A stretch of 64,000 nucleotides of DNA from Halarcobacter mediterraneus (lineage in GTDB: Bacteria; Campylobacterota; Campylobacteria; Campylobacterales; Arcobacteraceae). The stretch is from contig NZ_NXIE01000002.1 of the NCBI RefSeq assembly GCF_004116625.1, forward strand, positions 124,001 to 188,000. Reading direction: 5' to 3'. The position numbers and the translations under genes are program-made. The notes under the pieces are model-generated. The model was not told where the DNA came from. It was given only the letters and a program-made list of their open reading frames with translations, and made no database searches. Position 1 is the first letter of the stretch. The number at the start of each line of letters is the position of its first letter. Below are positions 4,491 to 62,149 of this stretch, one piece after another.

Positions 4491-6238
4491 TTTAATACCT
4501 TTTCTAAATTTGTCATTGTGCCTCTTTTTAATTCCTTATGAACATTCTTAGCTTTTTTAATAATTGGGTCTCGTCCATAAATATAACTTTGTTCATCTAC
4601 AATCACTTTATATGCTTTATTAAGTTTAAGTGCTCTTTGTTTAGAAGGTAAAATCAAATATGAAATATCATTTTTTATCTTTTCTAATTCTTCAAGTTTA
4701 AATTTCCACTCTTGCTTTAAATCAATCTTAGGATTTTCTAATTTTGAAATTAAATCCTTTCTGATATTTTCTTCATCTTTTTGCCAATTTACTTTAAAAA
4801 ATTTCTTTTCAATTTCATCATTTGATCGAAACTCATCCCCTGCACTATTTTCTTTTAAATATCTTACATATTCACTTTGCCCATTTGGTAAAAGTTTATC
4901 AACTATATTTTCAAAGCCTTTTTGACTCCAATGGTACCAACCTTGTGCATGGGTATTTTTTTCAAACTTTCTTTGGAATACAAAAGTGGAATCTGCTACT
5001 GCACCAATATTACTATGGCAACCTATACAAAATAAAGTTTCTTCATAACTTTGAGGTCTTAAATCACCACTTTTATCCTCTATAAAGCCTTGATAAAACC
5101 AACCTCTTTTATTATTTACTCCTATTTCCATATTTCCATTAAAAATGTCCACTCTATCTGGATAATCATGTTTTGCTTTTATTTCTTCTAAGCCTAAGTT
5201 ACTTAACTGAGAATAATTGTTCCATGACTTTTTAACTGCATATCTTAACTCTTTTAATCTTTTAGACATAATTATTTTATTGTTTTTATCAATATCAATA
5301 TATCTTACAGAATGTATAAACTCTGTTCCTTTTGGATAAAGTCCAGGTGCAATTAAAATATCATTATTTATTAATTGTTTTCTTGCAAATCCCACATAAC
5401 TCATAGTAAAATTTGATATCTTTTTTGTTTTTATATCAAAACTTGGTTTTTGCCATTTAAATACAATTTTTGAAGCTTTATCCAATTTACCATTTTGATT
5501 TAAATCTACAGAATATTTTCTTTCATCTATTTGAGATATTTCTATTGTTTTTTGTTTAATTAAACTTTCAACAATTGATAAATTTAATTTATAAACTTCT
5601 AAGTCAAAATTTCCTTGTTCATCTTCTTGAAATATTTTAGGAAGTCTAATTAAAACATCGTCTGTACTTCCATTTGTAGGCCAAAATGTACCTAAGAAAG
5701 GATAATATGCAAAAGCTCTCCAACCTGTATATTCTCCATTTTTATCCTTATCAAAGCCTTCTTTATCAAAATTAAAATATAAATCAGGAATGTAACCATC
5801 CCATTTACCATTTTCATTAAAGTCCCAATCTTTTGAAAGTTTTACTAACTTATTTTTTAAAATAATGTTCCCTTCTTTGTCAAGATAATTATCTTTTCTA
5901 ATATAATTTAGAATTTCTTCATCACTAATTTTTTCAATTTGTCTTGTTCTATCTTTAAATAAATTAGTCCAAGGATTTTTAAAAGCTGCGGCAGGGAAAT
6001 CATAAGCTTCTTGTAAATCTGCATCTCGTAAAGTAAAATTTGGTTCTTTATTTTGAGTATGGCAAGTATAACAGGGATTATGTAAGATATTTTCATCTAT
6101 ATCACTTACTGTTTTTGTATAGCACTGACTAGGGATATATGCTGTTTCATTATAAAGTTTCTTACTTTTTATATCCATAGAAAACAAGCTACTACAGGCA
6201 AGAATATTAAAAAAAATATATAATTTTGTTTTATTCAT
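4487..6238 (-). CDS. Exported di-heme c-type cytochrome with EF-hand-like loops
   Basis: 583 residues with a hydrophobic N-terminal export signal. Two heme c sites are visible: CYTCH at residues 56-60 and CIGCH at 404-408. Between them lie four Asp/Asn-rich loops resembling EF-hand calcium loops (around 138-148, 158-170, 245-254 and 315-321, for example D-F-N-E-N-G-K-W-D). The protein should be periplasmic or membrane attached and carry electrons, but the partner is unknown. It is first in a four-gene operon with a NicO permease and DUF1007 protein, an unusual pairing of a cytochrome with metal transport. I do not recognise a named family. Confidence 0.75.
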   Translation of the reverse strand: MNKTKLYIFFNILACSSLFSMDIKSKKLYNETAYIPSQCYTKTVSDIDENILHNPCYTCHTQNKEPNFTLRDADLQEAYDFPAAAFKNPWTNLFKDRTRQIEKISDEEILNYIRKDNYLDKEGNIILKNKLVKLSKDWDFNENGKWDGYIPDLYFNFDKEGFDKDKNGEYTGWRAFAYYPFLGTFWPTNGSTDDVLIRLPKIFQEDEQGNFDLEVYKLNLSIVESLIKQKTIEISQIDERKYSVDLNQNGKLDKASKIVFKWQKPSFDIKTKKISNFTMSYVGFARKQLINNDILIAPGLYPKGTEFIHSVRYIDIDKNNKIIMSKRLKELRYAVKKSWNNYSQLSNLGLEEIKAKHDYPDRVDIFNGNMEIGVNNKRGWFYQGFIEDKSGDLRPQSYEETLFCIGCHSNIGAVADSTFVFQRKFEKNTHAQGWYHWSQKGFENIVDKLLPNGQSEYVRYLKENSAGDEFRSNDEIEKKFFKVNWQKDEENIRKDLISKLENPKIDLKQEWKFKLEELEKIKNDISYLILPSKQRALKLNKAYKVIVDEQSYIYGRDPIIKKAKNVHKELKRGTMTNLEKVLK

Positions 6239-8090: not shown

Positions 8091-9942
8091 AATTATATTT
8101 TTTTATTTTTCCTGTTATTATAAATTCTGCACCATTTTTATATTGATAAGATACTGTTCCAAATAATTGGTGACTTACAATAGTATTAATAAGTTTTAAT
8201 CCTAAAGTTGTTTCAGATACTTGTGAAAACTCTTTGTCCAAACCTTTTCCATTATCTTTAACGACAAGATTTAAAATATTTTCTTCTTTTGTTAACCTAA
8301 TTTTCAATTTTTCATTTTCTTGACCTTTAAATCCATATTTAAAAGCATTTGTAACAAGTTCATTTAAAATTATTCCATAAGGCATAGCTGTCTCAATATT
8401 TAAATCAATATCATCAACTTTAATATCTATTAAAACTCTATTTTCAATATCATAACTTCTTGAAATAGTTTTAACTAAATCTATTACATATTTTCTAAAT
8501 GGTATGTCATTTAAATTTGTAGATTCATACAATTTTCTATGAAGAAGTTCCATAGTATATATTCTTTCTTTAATATCTACTAAAACCTTTTTTACTCTTT
8601 TATCATCTACATCTTCTTCTTGAAGTTCAATTAAGCTGATTGTTAGTGCTAAATTATTCTTTACTCTATGGTGTATCTCTTTTAATAAAATCTCTTTTTC
8701 TTCTAAAGATTTTGAAATTTCTTTCGTTTTTTCTTCAACTTTTTTATCTAAGGTCTCGATACTATTTTCAAAAAAGTCAAGCATGGAGTCAAAAGATTTT
8801 CCTAATACTCCAATATCATCATCTCCTCGAACACTACTTCTTATATTCTTTTTTCCTTGATTCACTAAAAGTGCTGTTTTTGTTAAAGTATCGATATTCT
8901 TTAAAATTCTTCTAAAAAGTAGTATTAAAAGAATAAAACTAATCCCAATAGCTATTAAAGATTCAGGAAGTAAAAACAATAATTTTGCTTTATTCTTCTT
9001 TTCAATCTCTTGCTTATCAATAGTATATATTATAAAAAAAGGTCTTTTAGGATTTCCACTTAAATTAATTATCCAAGTTAAAACATCTTTTAAATTCAAT
9101 TTGTGAGATATAGGTTTATTACTTTTTGAAACCTCAAATACTTCTTTTGTAGTCAAGTTTCCTGTAGAAATATTTCTTATATTTGATAGCATACTAACAT
9201 TATATTTTTCTTTTCTTTTTTCTTTGTCTTCTTCGTAAAAAATTGAATTATCATTTTTATCTAAATTGGGATTTATCCAAACAAAAGTAGTTTTTGTATT
9301 AGAAAGTTCTGAATCAATAATTAAATCTACATGAATATGTTCTTTTAAACTTATTTCAAAAGGCATATGCCCTGGATTTAAATCCCTTGTACTACAGGCT
9401 ATACTTAATAATATATTTTTTATTTTATAATTAAAAAAATAATAGGGCTTAACTCTATAATCTTTTAAACTATTTATATAAACTTCTTTTTTTTGCCATT
9501 TGTTTAAAAGCTTATTGTTATTAAAAGAAAAAAAATCATCTTTTTTTATTTCTTTTATATTCAAGTCATTTGAAGATAGTTTATATGAACACCGTTTTAA
9601 AAATTCAGAATTTTTAAAAAAGTTAATAACTTTATCACTTGAAATATTTTTTTGTAAAGCTAACTCTTTTATTTCATTTTCAATTTTTGTTTTAGATAAC
9701 TCTATTTCAAGTTCTCTTTGCATTTTTAAAGATTTACCAATTATCTTGATTTTTTCTTGTAAAAGCATTAATGATTTTGTGATGTATTCTATCTCATTAT
9801 CTAAAGCTCTTTTCTCAATTTTAGGAACTGATAGAAAGGTTCTAATCAACATAAATACTAATAAAAATATCAAAAAAGATAAAATTACTTTTGTCGAAAA
9901 TGAATACTGATTTATACTAAAAAGTTTAAGAATTCTTTTCAA
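8089..9942 (-). CDS. Membrane sensor histidine kinase, HisKA_2 type
   Basis: 617 residues. TM1 at ~17-37, a long periplasmic sensor region (~40-318, Cache-like in length and placement), TM2 at ~322-345, a HAMP-like linker to ~400, a coiled coil, then the HisKA_2 dimerisation box K-E-I-H-H-R-V-K-N-N (421-430) with His424 as the likely phospho-site, and a HATPase_c domain with NELVTNAFKYG (N box) and DNGKG (G1). Its start overlaps the end of the response-regulator gene by 17 bases, so the two are co-transcribed with the regulator first. The signal is unknown; the divergent RND pump suggests an envelope or toxic-compound stimulus (inference). Confidence 0.88.
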   Translation of the reverse strand: MKRILKLFSINQYSFSTKVILSFLIFLLVFMLIRTFLSVPKIEKRALDNEIEYITKSLMLLQEKIKIIGKSLKMQRELEIELSKTKIENEIKELALQKNISSDKVINFFKNSEFLKRCSYKLSSNDLNIKEIKKDDFFSFNNNKLLNKWQKKEVYINSLKDYRVKPYYFFNYKIKNILLSIACSTRDLNPGHMPFEISLKEHIHVDLIIDSELSNTKTTFVWINPNLDKNDNSIFYEEDKEKRKEKYNVSMLSNIRNISTGNLTTKEVFEVSKSNKPISHKLNLKDVLTWIINLSGNPKRPFFIIYTIDKQEIEKKNKAKLLFLLPESLIAIGISFILLILLFRRILKNIDTLTKTALLVNQGKKNIRSSVRGDDDIGVLGKSFDSMLDFFENSIETLDKKVEEKTKEISKSLEEKEILLKEIHHRVKNNLALTISLIELQEEDVDDKRVKKVLVDIKERIYTMELLHRKLYESTNLNDIPFRKYVIDLVKTISRSYDIENRVLIDIKVDDIDLNIETAMPYGIILNELVTNAFKYGFKGQENEKLKIRLTKEENILNLVVKDNGKGLDKEFSQVSETTLGLKLINTIVSHQLFGTVSYQYKNGAEFIITGKIKKYN

Positions 9943-57381: not shown

Positions 57382-57414
57382 AGTATAAAAATTAATTTTC
57401 TAAACTTTTATACT
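57382..57414. terminator. Bidirectional terminator between exbD and DUF779 gene
   Basis: Stem AGTATAAAA / TTTTATACT with a 15-base loop; it overlaps the end of the convergent DUF779 gene. Confidence 0.55.
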
Positions 57415-57770
57415 CTTCTATACTCTTCATCACTAAAAATTCTTGATTTTGTAAGAAATTGGTATCCTTCATCAATTTCCAAAGAAAAAGAGTTTCCAAA
57501 AGCACCTTGTTCTTTTTTTACATCAACTATTATCTGAGAGTGTCTAAAATACTCAAATTGTTCGTGGTCAATAAAAAATTCACAATTACAGATTTCTCCC
57601 AATTTCACATTTCTACTTGGTACATAAAAATCTGTTTTTTCATAACACATGGGAGCAGTACCATCACAACATCCTCCACTTTGGTTAAAAACAAGTTCTC
57701 CATGTTTTTCTTTTAATAACTCAATTACTTTTTTTGCTTCATCAGTTGCAATTACTCTTTTTATTTTCAT
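57408..57770 (-). CDS. DUF779 protein, aldehyde dehydrogenase partner
   Basis: 120 residues from ATG 57770 with AAAGGA upstream. Opens VIATDEAKKVIELLKEKHG and has the DUF779 hallmark QSGGCCDGTAPMC (~33-45) with three Cys plus another pair in GEICNCEFFID. DUF779 genes are nearly always directly after ExaC/AcoD-type aldehyde dehydrogenases, as here. The Cys-rich segment may bind a metal; the molecular role is unknown. Confidence 0.85.
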   Translation of the reverse strand: MKIKRVIATDEAKKVIELLKEKHGELVFNQSGGCCDGTAPMCYEKTDFYVPSRNVKLGEICNCEFFIDHEQFEYFRHSQIIVDVKKEQGAFGNSFSLEIDEGYQFLTKSRIFSDEEYRRV

Positions 57771-57792
57771 TTCATATCCTTTAAAAATATAA

Positions 57793-57839
57793 GGCTGGGG
57801 ATAGCTAGGAAAGATTAGGAAAGGAGTACTTCCCCAGCC
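57793..57839 (-). repeat. GC-rich intercistronic stem-loop between aldehyde dehydrogenase and DUF779
   Basis: A 9-bp perfect stem GGCTGGGGA / TCCCCAGCC, very GC-rich for this genome, closes a 29-base loop with two direct copies of TAGGAAAG (57806, 57816; CTTTCCTA in the mRNA). It lies 23 bases before the DUF779 start and may terminate part of the transcripts, shield the aldehyde dehydrogenase mRNA, or control DUF779 translation. Confidence 0.7.
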
Positions 57840-57863
57840 CAAATATTATATTTTAACTATCTA

Positions 57864-59360
57864 TTAAAAAAATCCTAAAGCATTTTTACTGTAAGAAGTT
57901 AAGATATTTTTTGTATGTCTATAAGAATTTAACATCATCATATGAGTTTCTCTACCAATACCTGATTTTTTATATCCACCAAATGAAGCATGAGAAGGAT
58001 ATAAGTGGTAACAATTTACCCAAACTCTACCTGCTTCAATTGCTCTACTTACTTTATGTAATTGATGCGCATCCCTTGACCATACACCAGAACCAAGTCC
58101 ATAAATAGTATCATTTGCAATTTCTATTGCTTCTTCTTCATCTTTAAAAGTTGTTACAGCTAGAACTGGTCCAAAAATTTCTTCTTGGAATATTCTCATT
58201 TTATTATGACCTTTAAAGATTGTAGGTTTAATATAATATCCATTTGGATGTTTAGCTGATTCATAAGCTTCACCACCGATTAGACACTCAGCACCTTCTT
58301 CTTTACCAATTTTAATATATTCTAAAATCTTTTCTTTTTGACTTTGAGAACACTGAGCACCCATCATATTTTCAGTATCCAAAGGATCACCTAATTTAAT
58401 TGCTTCGATTCTTTCTAATACTCTTTTCATAAATGGTTCATAAATTGATTCTTGAATTAAGGCTCTTGATGGGCAAGTACAAACTTCCCCTGAGTTAAAT
58501 GCAAATAAAACTAAACCTTCAATTGCTTTATCAAAAAACTCATCGTCTGCATCCATAATTGACTCAAAGAATACATTTGGAGATTTTCCACCAAGCTCTA
58601 AAGTAGAAGGAATAATATTTTCAGTTGCATATTGCATAATTAACTGACCTGTAGTAGTTTCACCAGTAAATCCTACTTTTTTTACATCTGGGTGTGTTGA
58701 TAAATATTTACCTATTTTTCCACCTGAACCATTAATAATATTTACAACACCTTTTGGAAGAACATCTTGAATAGTTTCCATTAATAAAAGAATTGATTTT
58801 GGAGTAGCTGATGCTGGTTTCATAACTACACAATTTCCAGCAGCTAATGCAGGAGCCAATTTCCAAGCAGCCATTAATAATGGGAAGTTCCAAGGAATAA
58901 TTTGTGCAACAACTCCATATGGCTCATAAATTTCTTGTGATACTGTAGTTTCATCTAAATCAGAAACAGTACCTGACTCTGCTCTAATTACTGAAGCAAA
59001 ATATCTAAAGTGATCAACAACTAAAGGAACATCTGCATTTAAAGTTTCTCTTACTGTTTTACCATTATCTAATGTTTCAGCAATAGCTAAAGCTTCAAGA
59101 TTTGCTTCAATTGCATCTGCAACTTTATTTAGCATTGTACTTCTTTCTATTACTGAAGTTTTTTTATAAGATTCAAAAGCAGTTTTTGCTGCTTGAACAG
59201 CTAATTCAACATCTTCTTCATTTGACCTTGGGATTCTTGTTAAAACATCTCCATCAACAGGAGATACATTATCAAAATATTCACCACTTTTTGGAGCAAC
59301 CCACTCCCCACCAATAAAGTTCTCATACTGAGGTTTGAAATTTGGTTTATTAAATACCAT
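57864..59360 (-). CDS. NAD-dependent aldehyde dehydrogenase (ExaC/AcoD type)
   Basis: 498 residues. Catalytic Cys in GEVCTCPSR (~305), general base Glu in LELGGKSPNVFF (~267), NAD-binding GFTGETTTG and IIPWNFPLLMAAWKLAPALAAGN. Matches the ExaC/AcoD group that oxidises acetaldehyde and similar aldehydes to acids. Followed by its usual DUF779 partner. AAAAGGAA precedes ATG 59360. The promoter region has a phased GCTATA array, so it is probably activator-dependent. Close to pqq genes and a FIST-type two-component system, suggesting alcohol oxidation. Confidence 0.93.
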   Translation of the reverse strand: MVFNKPNFKPQYENFIGGEWVAPKSGEYFDNVSPVDGDVLTRIPRSNEEDVELAVQAAKTAFESYKKTSVIERSTMLNKVADAIEANLEALAIAETLDNGKTVRETLNADVPLVVDHFRYFASVIRAESGTVSDLDETTVSQEIYEPYGVVAQIIPWNFPLLMAAWKLAPALAAGNCVVMKPASATPKSILLLMETIQDVLPKGVVNIINGSGGKIGKYLSTHPDVKKVGFTGETTTGQLIMQYATENIIPSTLELGGKSPNVFFESIMDADDEFFDKAIEGLVLFAFNSGEVCTCPSRALIQESIYEPFMKRVLERIEAIKLGDPLDTENMMGAQCSQSQKEKILEYIKIGKEEGAECLIGGEAYESAKHPNGYYIKPTIFKGHNKMRIFQEEIFGPVLAVTTFKDEEEAIEIANDTIYGLGSGVWSRDAHQLHKVSRAIEAGRVWVNCYHLYPSHASFGGYKKSGIGRETHMMMLNSYRHTKNILTSYSKNALGFF

Positions 59361-59427: not shown

Positions 59428-59433
59428 ATTCTA
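59428..59433 (-). promoter_or_regulatory. -10 box of aldehyde dehydrogenase operon
   Basis: TAGAAT on the minus strand, 67 bases before the start codon. No -35 hexamer stands 17 bp upstream; instead the nearest GCTATA unit of the array starts 9 bp away, as in PhoB-activated promoters. Confidence 0.5.
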
Positions 59434-59442
59434 CTTTAATTT

Positions 59443-59538
59443 TATAGCCTCAATATAGCCAATTTTATAGCATGAATATAGCGAAGTATTTTTGTCAACA
59501 AAAGCCTTATTCTGTGGGTATAGTAGCATTAACATAGC
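59443..59538. promoter_or_regulatory. Helically phased TAGC array, probable OmpR/PhoB-type operator
   Basis: TATAGC (plus strand) begins at 59443, 59454, 59466 and 59477; two further TAGC cores are at 59524 and 59535. Core spacings are 11, 12, 11, 45 and 11, all near multiples of 11.25 bp, so all six face the same side of DNA. On the minus strand the first four form two ~23-bp repeats, GCTATATT-x3 then GCTATAAAATT. The adjacent OmpR-type regulator (61490-62149) is the natural candidate to bind. Confidence 0.6.
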
Positions 59539-59585
59539 ATTGAAAATTTCTTCCTTTTTTTGTAAATTTTCATTTTATTTTATGC

Positions 59586-59591
59586 TACAAT
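59586..59591 (+). promoter_or_regulatory. -10 box of leaderless FIST-kinase transcript
   Basis: TATGC-TACAAT: an extended -10 whose hexamer ends six bases before ATG 59598. Transcription would start at or next to the A of ATG, and no ribosome site is present between. Confidence 0.55.
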
Positions 59592-59597
59592 TATAAG

Positions 59598-61493
59598 ATG
59601 AAAACTTACAATTATATATATCAAAATAATCAATTTCAAAATGAAATAGATTATTCTTTATTTAAAAATAAAAAAAATATACTTATACAAATTTTTTGTG
59701 GTCAAAACATAAGTACTTTGGAGTATATTACTAATTTATTAAATAAACATCTTCCCCAAGCCATTTGTATTGGTTCTACAACAGATGGAGAAATAAAAGA
59801 TAATAACGTTTCAACTTTAGGAACAATGGTAGCTATTTCTGTTTTTGAAAATACTACTTTAAAAATATCAATAAAAAATAGTGAGAATTCTTTTGAAAAT
59901 GGTTATGAAATTGCAAAAGACATTATTACAGATAATACAAAATTAATTATTACTTTTACAGATAGTACTTCTACAAATGGAGAGGATTATTTAAAAGGAA
60001 TTAGTTCTTTTAATAATTCAATTATGGTTTGTGGAGGAATGGCAGGAGACAATGGAAAATTTTCAAAAACTTATATTAGTGCAGGAAAAACAATAATTGA
60101 TAAAGGAGCTGTTGCAGTTTCATTAAACTCTGATATTTTACAAGTTAAAAATGATATAAAACATGGTTGGTCTCCTATAGGTATAGAACATACAATTGAT
60201 AAGATTGAAGGTAATAGAATTTATAGAATATCAGGTATGAAAGCAATTGACTTTTATAAAAAATATTTAGGAAATGGTAACTTACATACTTTTACAGAAT
60301 TTCCATTAATGATTAAAAAAGCAGGTATATCAATAGCAAGAGCAGCTGTCACAAGATATCCAGATGGAAGCTTAGGTTGTGGTGGTGGATTAAGAGAAGG
60401 AGATAAGGTAAGATTAGGTATTGCTGATGCTGAACTAATTATTAATACTCCTTTTAAATATTTAGAAGATATAGACTCTCACCCTACTGAGAGTTTTTTT
60501 ATTTATTCTTGTATGGCAAGGCGTAGGTATATGCAAAAGCTTACTTTACTAGAAATTGAACCTTTCACTTCAATAGCTACTACTTCAGGTTTTTTTACAA
60601 ATGCCGAGTTTTTCCATGAAAACAACAAAAATGAATTAATGAATCAAACAATTACCTTAGTTGGTCTTTCTGAAAACCCTCAATCAGTTGAAAAACCTAT
60701 ACTATCTAACAATATTAGTAATACTCAGGATATTTCTTATGCAAAAACAATTCAAGCTTTAACTAGCCTAATTCAACAAAGTGCAAAAGATCAAAATGAA
60801 CAGGCAATTGCCCTACAAAAACAAATTGAATATTCTGAAACTCTTTTAAAAAATCAAAAATTATTTTTAAAACATTCTGTTCATGAAACAAATACTCCTT
60901 TATCTGTAATTATGAGTAATATTGATTTACATGAAATGGAATTTGGTAAAAATAAATATCTAGAAAATATTGAAGTTGCTATTAAAAATCTTTTTTCAAT
61001 TTATGATGATTTAAGTTATCTTGTAAAAAAAGACCAAGTAGAATATAAGGTTTATACTATTGATTTAATTGATTTTGTTAGAAGTAGAGTAAATTTTTTT
61101 AGAAATGTTGCTGCAAATATGACTAATTCAAGATTTTTATTTAGAAGTAATAAAGTTAAGGTTTTTATAGATTTTAGTGAGAGTAAACTCCAAAGAATTA
61201 TTGATAATACCCTTACAAATGCTATTAAGTATTCTTATGAAGGTGAAATAATAAAAGTAGACTTAGAAAGTGAAGGTGAATGTATAAGGTTCTCTGTTTC
61301 AAGTAAGTCAAGAAGGATACAAAATCCTAAAAAAATATTTGAAGAATATTACAGAGAAGAACATTCAAAGGATGGTTTTGGACTAGGTTTAAACTTAGTA
61401 AAAAGAATTTGTGAAGAAGAAGGTGTTTTAATTAAAGTAAATTCAAATATAGAACAAACAACTTTTTCTTACTCGTTTAAAGGATGTAAATGA
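59598..61493 (+). CDS. Cytosolic FIST-domain sensor histidine kinase
   Basis: 631 residues with no membrane helix. FIST N domain (~25-215; ICIGSTTDGEI, MVCGGMAGDNG) and FIST C domain (~215-360; FTEFPLMI, FIYSCMARR, GFFTNAEFFH), a coiled coil (~385-420), an atypical HisKA box H-S-V-H-E-T-N-T-P-L (phospho-His429) and HATPase_c (DNTLTNAIKYS, GFGLGLNLVKRI). FIST domains sense small molecules; some (NosP) bind heme and NO. The ATG follows the -10 box at leaderless distance. Overlaps the regulator gene by four bases. The signal may be an alcohol-pathway metabolite, inferred from the neighbours. Confidence 0.9.
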   Translation: MKTYNYIYQNNQFQNEIDYSLFKNKKNILIQIFCGQNISTLEYITNLLNKHLPQAICIGSTTDGEIKDNNVSTLGTMVAISVFENTTLKISIKNSENSFENGYEIAKDIITDNTKLIITFTDSTSTNGEDYLKGISSFNNSIMVCGGMAGDNGKFSKTYISAGKTIIDKGAVAVSLNSDILQVKNDIKHGWSPIGIEHTIDKIEGNRIYRISGMKAIDFYKKYLGNGNLHTFTEFPLMIKKAGISIARAAVTRYPDGSLGCGGGLREGDKVRLGIADAELIINTPFKYLEDIDSHPTESFFIYSCMARRRYMQKLTLLEIEPFTSIATTSGFFTNAEFFHENNKNELMNQTITLVGLSENPQSVEKPILSNNISNTQDISYAKTIQALTSLIQQSAKDQNEQAIALQKQIEYSETLLKNQKLFLKHSVHETNTPLSVIMSNIDLHEMEFGKNKYLENIEVAIKNLFSIYDDLSYLVKKDQVEYKVYTIDLIDFVRSRVNFFRNVAANMTNSRFLFRSNKVKVFIDFSESKLQRIIDNTLTNAIKYSYEGEIIKVDLESEGECIRFSVSSKSRRIQNPKKIFEEYYREEHSKDGFGLGLNLVKRICEEEGVLIKVNSNIEQTTFSYSFKGCK

Positions 61494-62149
61494 AAATATT
61501 ATTACTTGAAGACGATATTATGTTAAATAAAGCAATTACTCAATACCTTGAATCAACAGGGCATAAAATTATTTCCGTAATTGATGGAAACTCATGTATA
61601 GAGTCTCTAAATAATGAAAGTTTTGACCTTTTGGTATTTGATATAAATGTTCCAGATCAAGATGGTTTATCAATTTTGGAAGATTTACACAAACAAAAAA
61701 AGATGGTTCCAACTATATTTATTTCTGCACTTATTGATATAGAAGATATCACTAGAGCTTTTGACATTGGCTGCCATGATTACTTAAAAAAACCCTTTCA
61801 TTTAAAAGAATTAACCCTAAGAATTAATAAAATTTTAAAAACAAGACTTGTACCACAAGAGCATAAAAGACTTTCGGAATCATATAGTTATGATTCAAAA
61901 GAAATGATTTTATATTTTAATAAAGAACCTCATATTCTACCTAAAAGGCAAATCCAAATTATAGATTTACTTGCTGCTAATAGAAGTTTAGTTTGTAATT
62001 ATGATATGTTTAGAGATTATGTCTGGAATGATGATTATATAGATAATGCAACTATTAGAGCTGAAGTAAATAGAGTTAAAAAAGTTTTAAAAGAGGATTT
62101 TATTATAAATATTAGAGGTATTGGTTATATGGTTGAAAGACCTATGTAG
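61490..62149 (+). CDS. OmpR/PhoB-type response regulator
   Basis: 219 residues: receiver domain with Glu7-Asp8-Asp9, phospho-acceptor Asp51 (LLVFDINVPDQDG), Lys in YLKKPFH, and a C-terminal winged helix (~125-219) ending RGIGYMVERPM. Cognate partner of the FIST kinase (ATGA overlap). Its likely operator is the phased TAGC array between the kinase and aldehyde dehydrogenase genes. It converges on pqqE with a shared terminator. Confidence 0.92.
   Translation: MKILLLEDDIMLNKAITQYLESTGHKIISVIDGNSCIESLNNESFDLLVFDINVPDQDGLSILEDLHKQKKMVPTIFISALIDIEDITRAFDIGCHDYLKKPFHLKELTLRINKILKTRLVPQEHKRLSESYSYDSKEMILYFNKEPHILPKRQIQIIDLLAANRSLVCNYDMFRDYVWNDDYIDNATIRAEVNRVKKVLKEDFIINIRGIGYMVERPM

Follow-up and report, generated by a model that had tools for sequence, protein, structure and literature searches.

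The array and its neighbouring genes

The window, a stretch of 64,000 nucleotides (C2:124001-188000) of a genome that extends past it, contains an aldehyde dehydrogenase gene and a two-component system that are transcribed away from each other. The aldehyde dehydrogenase (ALDH; 57864..59360, minus strand) is ExaC-like and scores 842 bits against an equivalog cut-off of 900. The gene of a DUF779 protein (57408..57842) lies downstream of it on the same strand and is possibly co-transcribed with it. On the plus strand, a histidine kinase with N-terminal FIST and FIST_C domains (59598..61493) is followed by an OmpR-type response regulator with receiver and Trans_reg_C domains (61490..62149), the predicted binder of the boxes described below. 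Kinase and regulator are conserved together, and the FIST kinase precedes the regulator in the loci of relatives wherever the contig permits. Upstream of the kinase gene a conserved extended -10 element, TATGyTACAAT (59583-59600 in the window; also in L222-L226), ends 6 nt before the ATG, which suggests that the kinase mRNA is leaderless and independent of the box activator.

Six TAGC cores lie between the ALDH and kinase genes, at 59445, 59456, 59468, 59479, 59524 and 59535, with spacings of 11, 12, 11, 45 and 11 bp. These had been listed in an earlier note on this DNA, and on re-reading every position and spacing was exact. Its claim of a TAGAAT -10 box 9 bp from the innermost unit and lacking a -35 was likewise confirmed by reading: the hexamer is on the minus strand (59433-59428), 9 bp from the innermost GCTATA, and the sequence as read has no -35 at normal spacing from it. 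The suggestion that the array may act in both directions did not hold, with all six cores oriented toward ALDH and no box facing the kinase gene. The array is not due to chance. Among 20,000 dinucleotide-preserving shuffles of the 237-bp intergenic region, none reached three GCTA-N7-GCTA pairs or had four successive GCTA spaced 10-12 bp, and a four-GCTA run was seen in 0 of 300 shuffles of the whole window.

The repeat unit is better described on the minus strand, the coding strand of ALDH, as GCTA-N7-GCTATAAA. Read in this way, the array is GCTATATTCATGCTATAAA-N4-GCTATATTGAGGCTATAAA, and TAGAAT starts 15 nt past the last G. The proximal box GCTATATTGAGGCTATAAA occupies 59441..59459 and the second box GCTATATTCATGCTATAAA lies 23 bp upstream of it (59464..59482), while a distal pair GCTATGTTAATGCTA at 59524..59538, also on the minus strand, has equivalents in a subset of relatives. 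The arrangement has the features of an OmpR/PhoB-type operator, namely direct repeats about one helical turn apart, a position over the -35 region at a fixed distance from the -10, and a linked regulator with a Trans_reg_C domain. Direct repeats at one helical turn, together with the missing -35 and the invariant distance to the -10, suggest an OmpR-type dimer acting by class II activation.

Recurrence of the box in relatives and in an alcohol-oxidation cluster

An ortholog of the regulator (at least 66% identity to 61490-62149) is present in 62 of 104 genomes of the family and an ALDH ortholog in 72 of the 104. Seventy ALDH upstream regions were read, 56 from regulator-bearing genomes and 14 from genomes without the regulator. 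A FIST-type box was found in 56/56 of the former and 0/14 of the latter (Fisher p 5e-15, a test that counts few independent events because all 14 regulator-less genomes belong to one genus). Lack of conserved repeats upstream of ALDH orthologs had been named in the earlier note as grounds for dropping its proposal; the repeats are conserved wherever the regulator is present, and the same counts support the proposal itself, an OmpR/PhoB-type operator replacing the ALDH -35 with 61490-62149 as the predicted binder.

A proximal box with the -10 starting 15 nt from the last G stands in all 56 regulator-bearing ALDH promoters. In a first pass this offset was obtained in 54 of 56, the distal pair having been picked in two genomes (G088 and G064), and requiring an offset of 15 gave 56 of 56. 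The repeats in the arrays are spaced 11 bp, and 50 of the 56 arrays have at least four units. A scoring matrix trained on 80 non-ALDH boxes assigned every ALDH proximal box to the same type, and the best scores at ALDH were at least 15.2 with the regulator and at most 8.2 without it. The regulator-less promoters are not devoid of any related box, since 10 of the 14 carry one box that has a related core and lies 15 nt from a -10, for which the chance expectation is 0.0017 per promoter. Because most of these promoters keep one degenerate box, a paralogous regulator can plausibly use this layout.

The pattern GCTAN7GCTATAAA occurs at 8 sites in 2.83 Mb, all of them in C2:183441-196577, a single 13-kb cluster of ALDH and PQQ alcohol dehydrogenase genes, and its reversed control pattern gave 0 sites in the same genome. 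Two of the 8 boxes are at ALDH and the others precede genes for the PQQ alcohol dehydrogenase, its cytochrome c, an ABC-2 transporter operon, a small protein of unknown family, a porin-like protein and a SoxYZ-like protein. Boxes of the cluster beyond the window are located at C2:192191, 192342, 194391, 194415, 196529 and 196559. A search upstream of PQQ alcohol dehydrogenase genes had been proposed beforehand, and sites are present there. In the clusters of relatives, boxes lie upstream of cytochrome, transporter, beta-propeller and dehydrogenase genes, and the regulator is present in 30/30 genomes with a PQQ alcohol dehydrogenase. No box was seen within about 480 bp upstream of 12/30 alcohol dehydrogenase genes, some of which probably sit inside operons. 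The looser pattern GCTAT-N5..7-GCTAT matched 33 places, many of them distant from the cluster, whereas the sharper pattern matched in the cluster only; off-cluster candidates on C1 and C3 (L013, L014, L256) were rejected, having no box with a good -10 at 15 nt.

The consensus of the 80 non-ALDH boxes is GCTA W A H T N A R GCTATAAA. Columns outside the search pattern are also conserved, with A in column 5 (80/80), T in column 7 (78/80) and A in column 9 (69/80). The -10 hexamer belonged to the search pattern for this set, so its conservation there is not independent evidence; the independent count is a -10-like hexamer at offset 15 in 90 of 101 distinct cluster boxes. The sequence of the boxes, their geometry, their recurrence throughout the cluster and the correspondence of box type with presence of the regulator are observed directly. 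Since the same site precedes most genes of the neighbouring alcohol-oxidation cluster, also in relatives, the box appears to mark an undescribed alcohol-oxidation regulon that can be read as a whole from the sequence, and the comparative support for such a regulon seems unusually good. Six-unit GCTA arrays with an 11-bp period were also seen in another genus of the family (L202:4242, L207:1799, L211:4254, L212:4121), where the downstream gene encodes a protein of about 400 aa with no Pfam match.

The same box was found outside the family. At a Sulfurospirillaceae locus (L246) the regulator is 66% identical and the divergent gene encodes a molybdenum aldehyde oxidoreductase, not ALDH. The oxidoreductase promoter has GCTATATTCACGCTATA with TATAAT at 15 nt, and a second locus (L247) is similar. 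Here too the regulator and FIST kinase adjoin a promoter with the box, although the target is an aldehyde oxidoreductase that is not homologous to ALDH. At L246:10728-12731 a chemoreceptor with FIST and FIST_C domains adjoins the FIST kinase operon and has its own GCTA box, 15 nt from a -10. Sensor domains of this kind may function in chemotaxis as well as in gene control.

Probable activation by the neighbouring regulator and a possible role of a paralog

We consider it quite likely, with a probability of about 85%, that the array serves the ALDH promoter as its operator, at which the FIST-kinase/OmpR regulator binds the boxes, replaces -35 recognition and activates a regulon for alcohol and aldehyde oxidation. 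In this mechanism, the FIST kinase (59598-61493) would partner and phosphorylate the regulator (61490-62149), and the phosphorylated regulator would bind GCTA-N7-GCTATAAA boxes as head-to-tail dimers. One dimer would occupy the place of the -35 and help sigma-70 RNA polymerase to use the -10 exactly 15 nt from the last G, and a second dimer on the adjacent upstream box would probably add cooperativity. The same box is predicted to drive the PQQ alcohol dehydrogenase regulon, including the alcohol dehydrogenase, cytochrome c, ABC transporter, porin-like and SoxYZ-like genes, so that a single sensor would jointly turn on alcohol oxidation in the periplasm and aldehyde oxidation in the cytoplasm. 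Regulator binding, phosphorylation, activation instead of repression, and the signal are what we infer from the comparison of sequences. Repression, with the regulator covering the ALDH promoter until a signal releases it, would agree with boxes that overlap the -35 position, where repressors also bind; however, the lack of a -35 and the invariant spacing to the -10 suit an activator, and PceP, which has the same layout, is an activator. We regard repression as very unlikely.

A paralog of the regulator (C8:13541-14188), 54% identical and near-universal in the family, is paired with a Cache-domain kinase and adjoins sodium:solute symporter and DUF485 genes. Such genes are of the kind found in acetate uptake, and from knowledge of the family we take acetate to be the substrate. 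Its symporter operon is preceded by GCTAYYTTTTTGCTAY, 15 nt from a -10, in 19 of 20 relatives, and the paralog's recognition helix is similar to that of the 61490-62149 regulator. The two box types separated cleanly in training, with scores above +4 versus -12 or below. The distal pair in the window scored -4.1 and its equivalents in four relatives (G060, G059, G064, G088) scored -10 to -13.5, the paralog's type, as did 11 of 49 second boxes and 9 of the 10 single boxes at ALDH promoters without the FIST regulator. By sequence, the window's distal pair appears to resemble the box of the acetate-locus paralog more than that of the FIST regulator, and it should not be counted automatically among the sites of the latter. 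At an acetate-symporter-like locus of the paralog (L255, G000:C8), second-type GCTA boxes occur at 1094-1143 and 5923-5941; two opposing arrays precede the DUF485 gene, and a single box precedes the symporter operon. In the same locus a cluster of four tRNAs (Lys, Glu, Val, Asp), present in two tandem copies (8343-9036), lies upstream of the gene for the paralogous kinase.

The paralog enters the interpretation in two ways. If it, or another OmpR-type regulator, bound the whole array, the neighbouring regulator would be linked to the boxes by position only. Its near-universal presence, similar recognition helix and similar box would allow this, but the FIST-type box is missing from 14/14 ALDH promoters without the neighbouring regulator, while the paralog is present in those of the 14 genomes that were listed. 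The clean separation of the two box types, and a box that travels with the neighbouring regulator to a non-homologous target in another family, also argue against it, and we find this reading highly improbable. Another OmpR-type regulator near the cluster (L012:2903-3583) was rejected as the binder, its recognition helix being different and no box being seen beside it.

A composite array extends the activation by the neighbouring regulator instead of replacing it: the FIST-kinase regulator would bind the proximal boxes and the acetate-locus paralog the distal pair (59524-59538), and ALDH would answer to alcohol or aldehyde and to acetate. Because the distal pairs and the leftover single boxes score largely as the paralog's type, such a dual-input ALDH promoter is plausible. 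Yet 4 of 11 distal pairs score as the FIST regulator's type, a low score may also reflect a weak site of the same regulator, and distal pairs occur in a minority of relatives; we therefore hold the composite array to be possible, with the balance somewhat against it. More tentative still is a general form of the idea, in which two paralogous OmpR-type regulators share one rigid layout (GCTA-N7-GCTA, -10 at 15 nt), with the spacer letters, WAHTNAR or YYTTTTT, as the main distinction between them. The promoter of ALDH, the enzyme linking alcohol oxidation to acetate, would then have boxes for both, and would depend on a single paralog-type box where the FIST regulator is absent.

Comparison with known regulatory systems

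No described regulator, box or regulon for alcohol or aldehyde oxidation in Arcobacteraceae was found in the open-licence papers searched. The proposed activation of ALDH by the FIST-kinase/OmpR system would supply an operator code, a regulator and a target list for these pathways that can be tested, and would give the FIST-fused histidine kinase a probable role. PhoB is an OmpR-type regulator that binds the pho box as a dimer on tandem 11-bp direct repeats and replaces -35 recognition. The array shares the tandem 11-bp repeats, but those of PhoB have other letters (CTGTCAT), and the window regulator was rejected as a PhoB, scoring 83 bits against a PhoB cut-off of 296.

The Pseudomonas ped/exa cluster combines a PQQ alcohol dehydrogenase, an ExaC-type ALDH, a SoxYZ-like carrier, an ABC transporter and a porin, and the FIST protein NosP is encoded there beside the sensor kinase ErcS'/PedS1 (PMC12997753). 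The kind of gene cluster is thus the same as here, with a FIST protein near a sensor kinase, but the ped/exa regulators are of LuxR type (AgmR/ErbR) and the FIST protein is separate, whereas the window has an OmpR-type regulator and a FIST-fused kinase. In the NosP/NosK nitric-oxide systems a FIST domain controls a histidine kinase, NosP being a separate haem/NO protein (PMC12570481). FIST control of a kinase is the common element; the FIST of the window is part of the kinase itself, which was rejected as a NosP (38 bits against a cut-off of 450).

The closest likeness in working is to PceP of Sulfurospirillum. In EMSA this OmpR-family regulator binds CTATA repeats that are separated by 6-nt gaps and overlap the -35, and its cluster-wide regulon is induced by the substrate (PMC7755780). 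The PceS/PceP and box systems have in common an OmpR-family regulator, CTATA-N6-CTATA repeats with an 11-bp period overlapping the -35, and a cluster-wide regulon. The pceAB promoter region of related genomes contains three CTATA units and a TATCAT 15 nt after the last GCTATA, the TATCAT having been assigned here by reading the sequence and not taken from that paper. Identity between PceP and the window regulator is only 27%, which rules out orthology and makes this a likeness of working, not of membership; moreover, PceS is a membrane kinase without FIST, and the target is tetrachloroethene respiration. Together, the box regulator, the acetate-locus paralog and PceP suggest that one rigid promoter layout is common to several regulators of Campylobacterota, which offers a natural system for testing how paralogous regulators avoid each other's targets.
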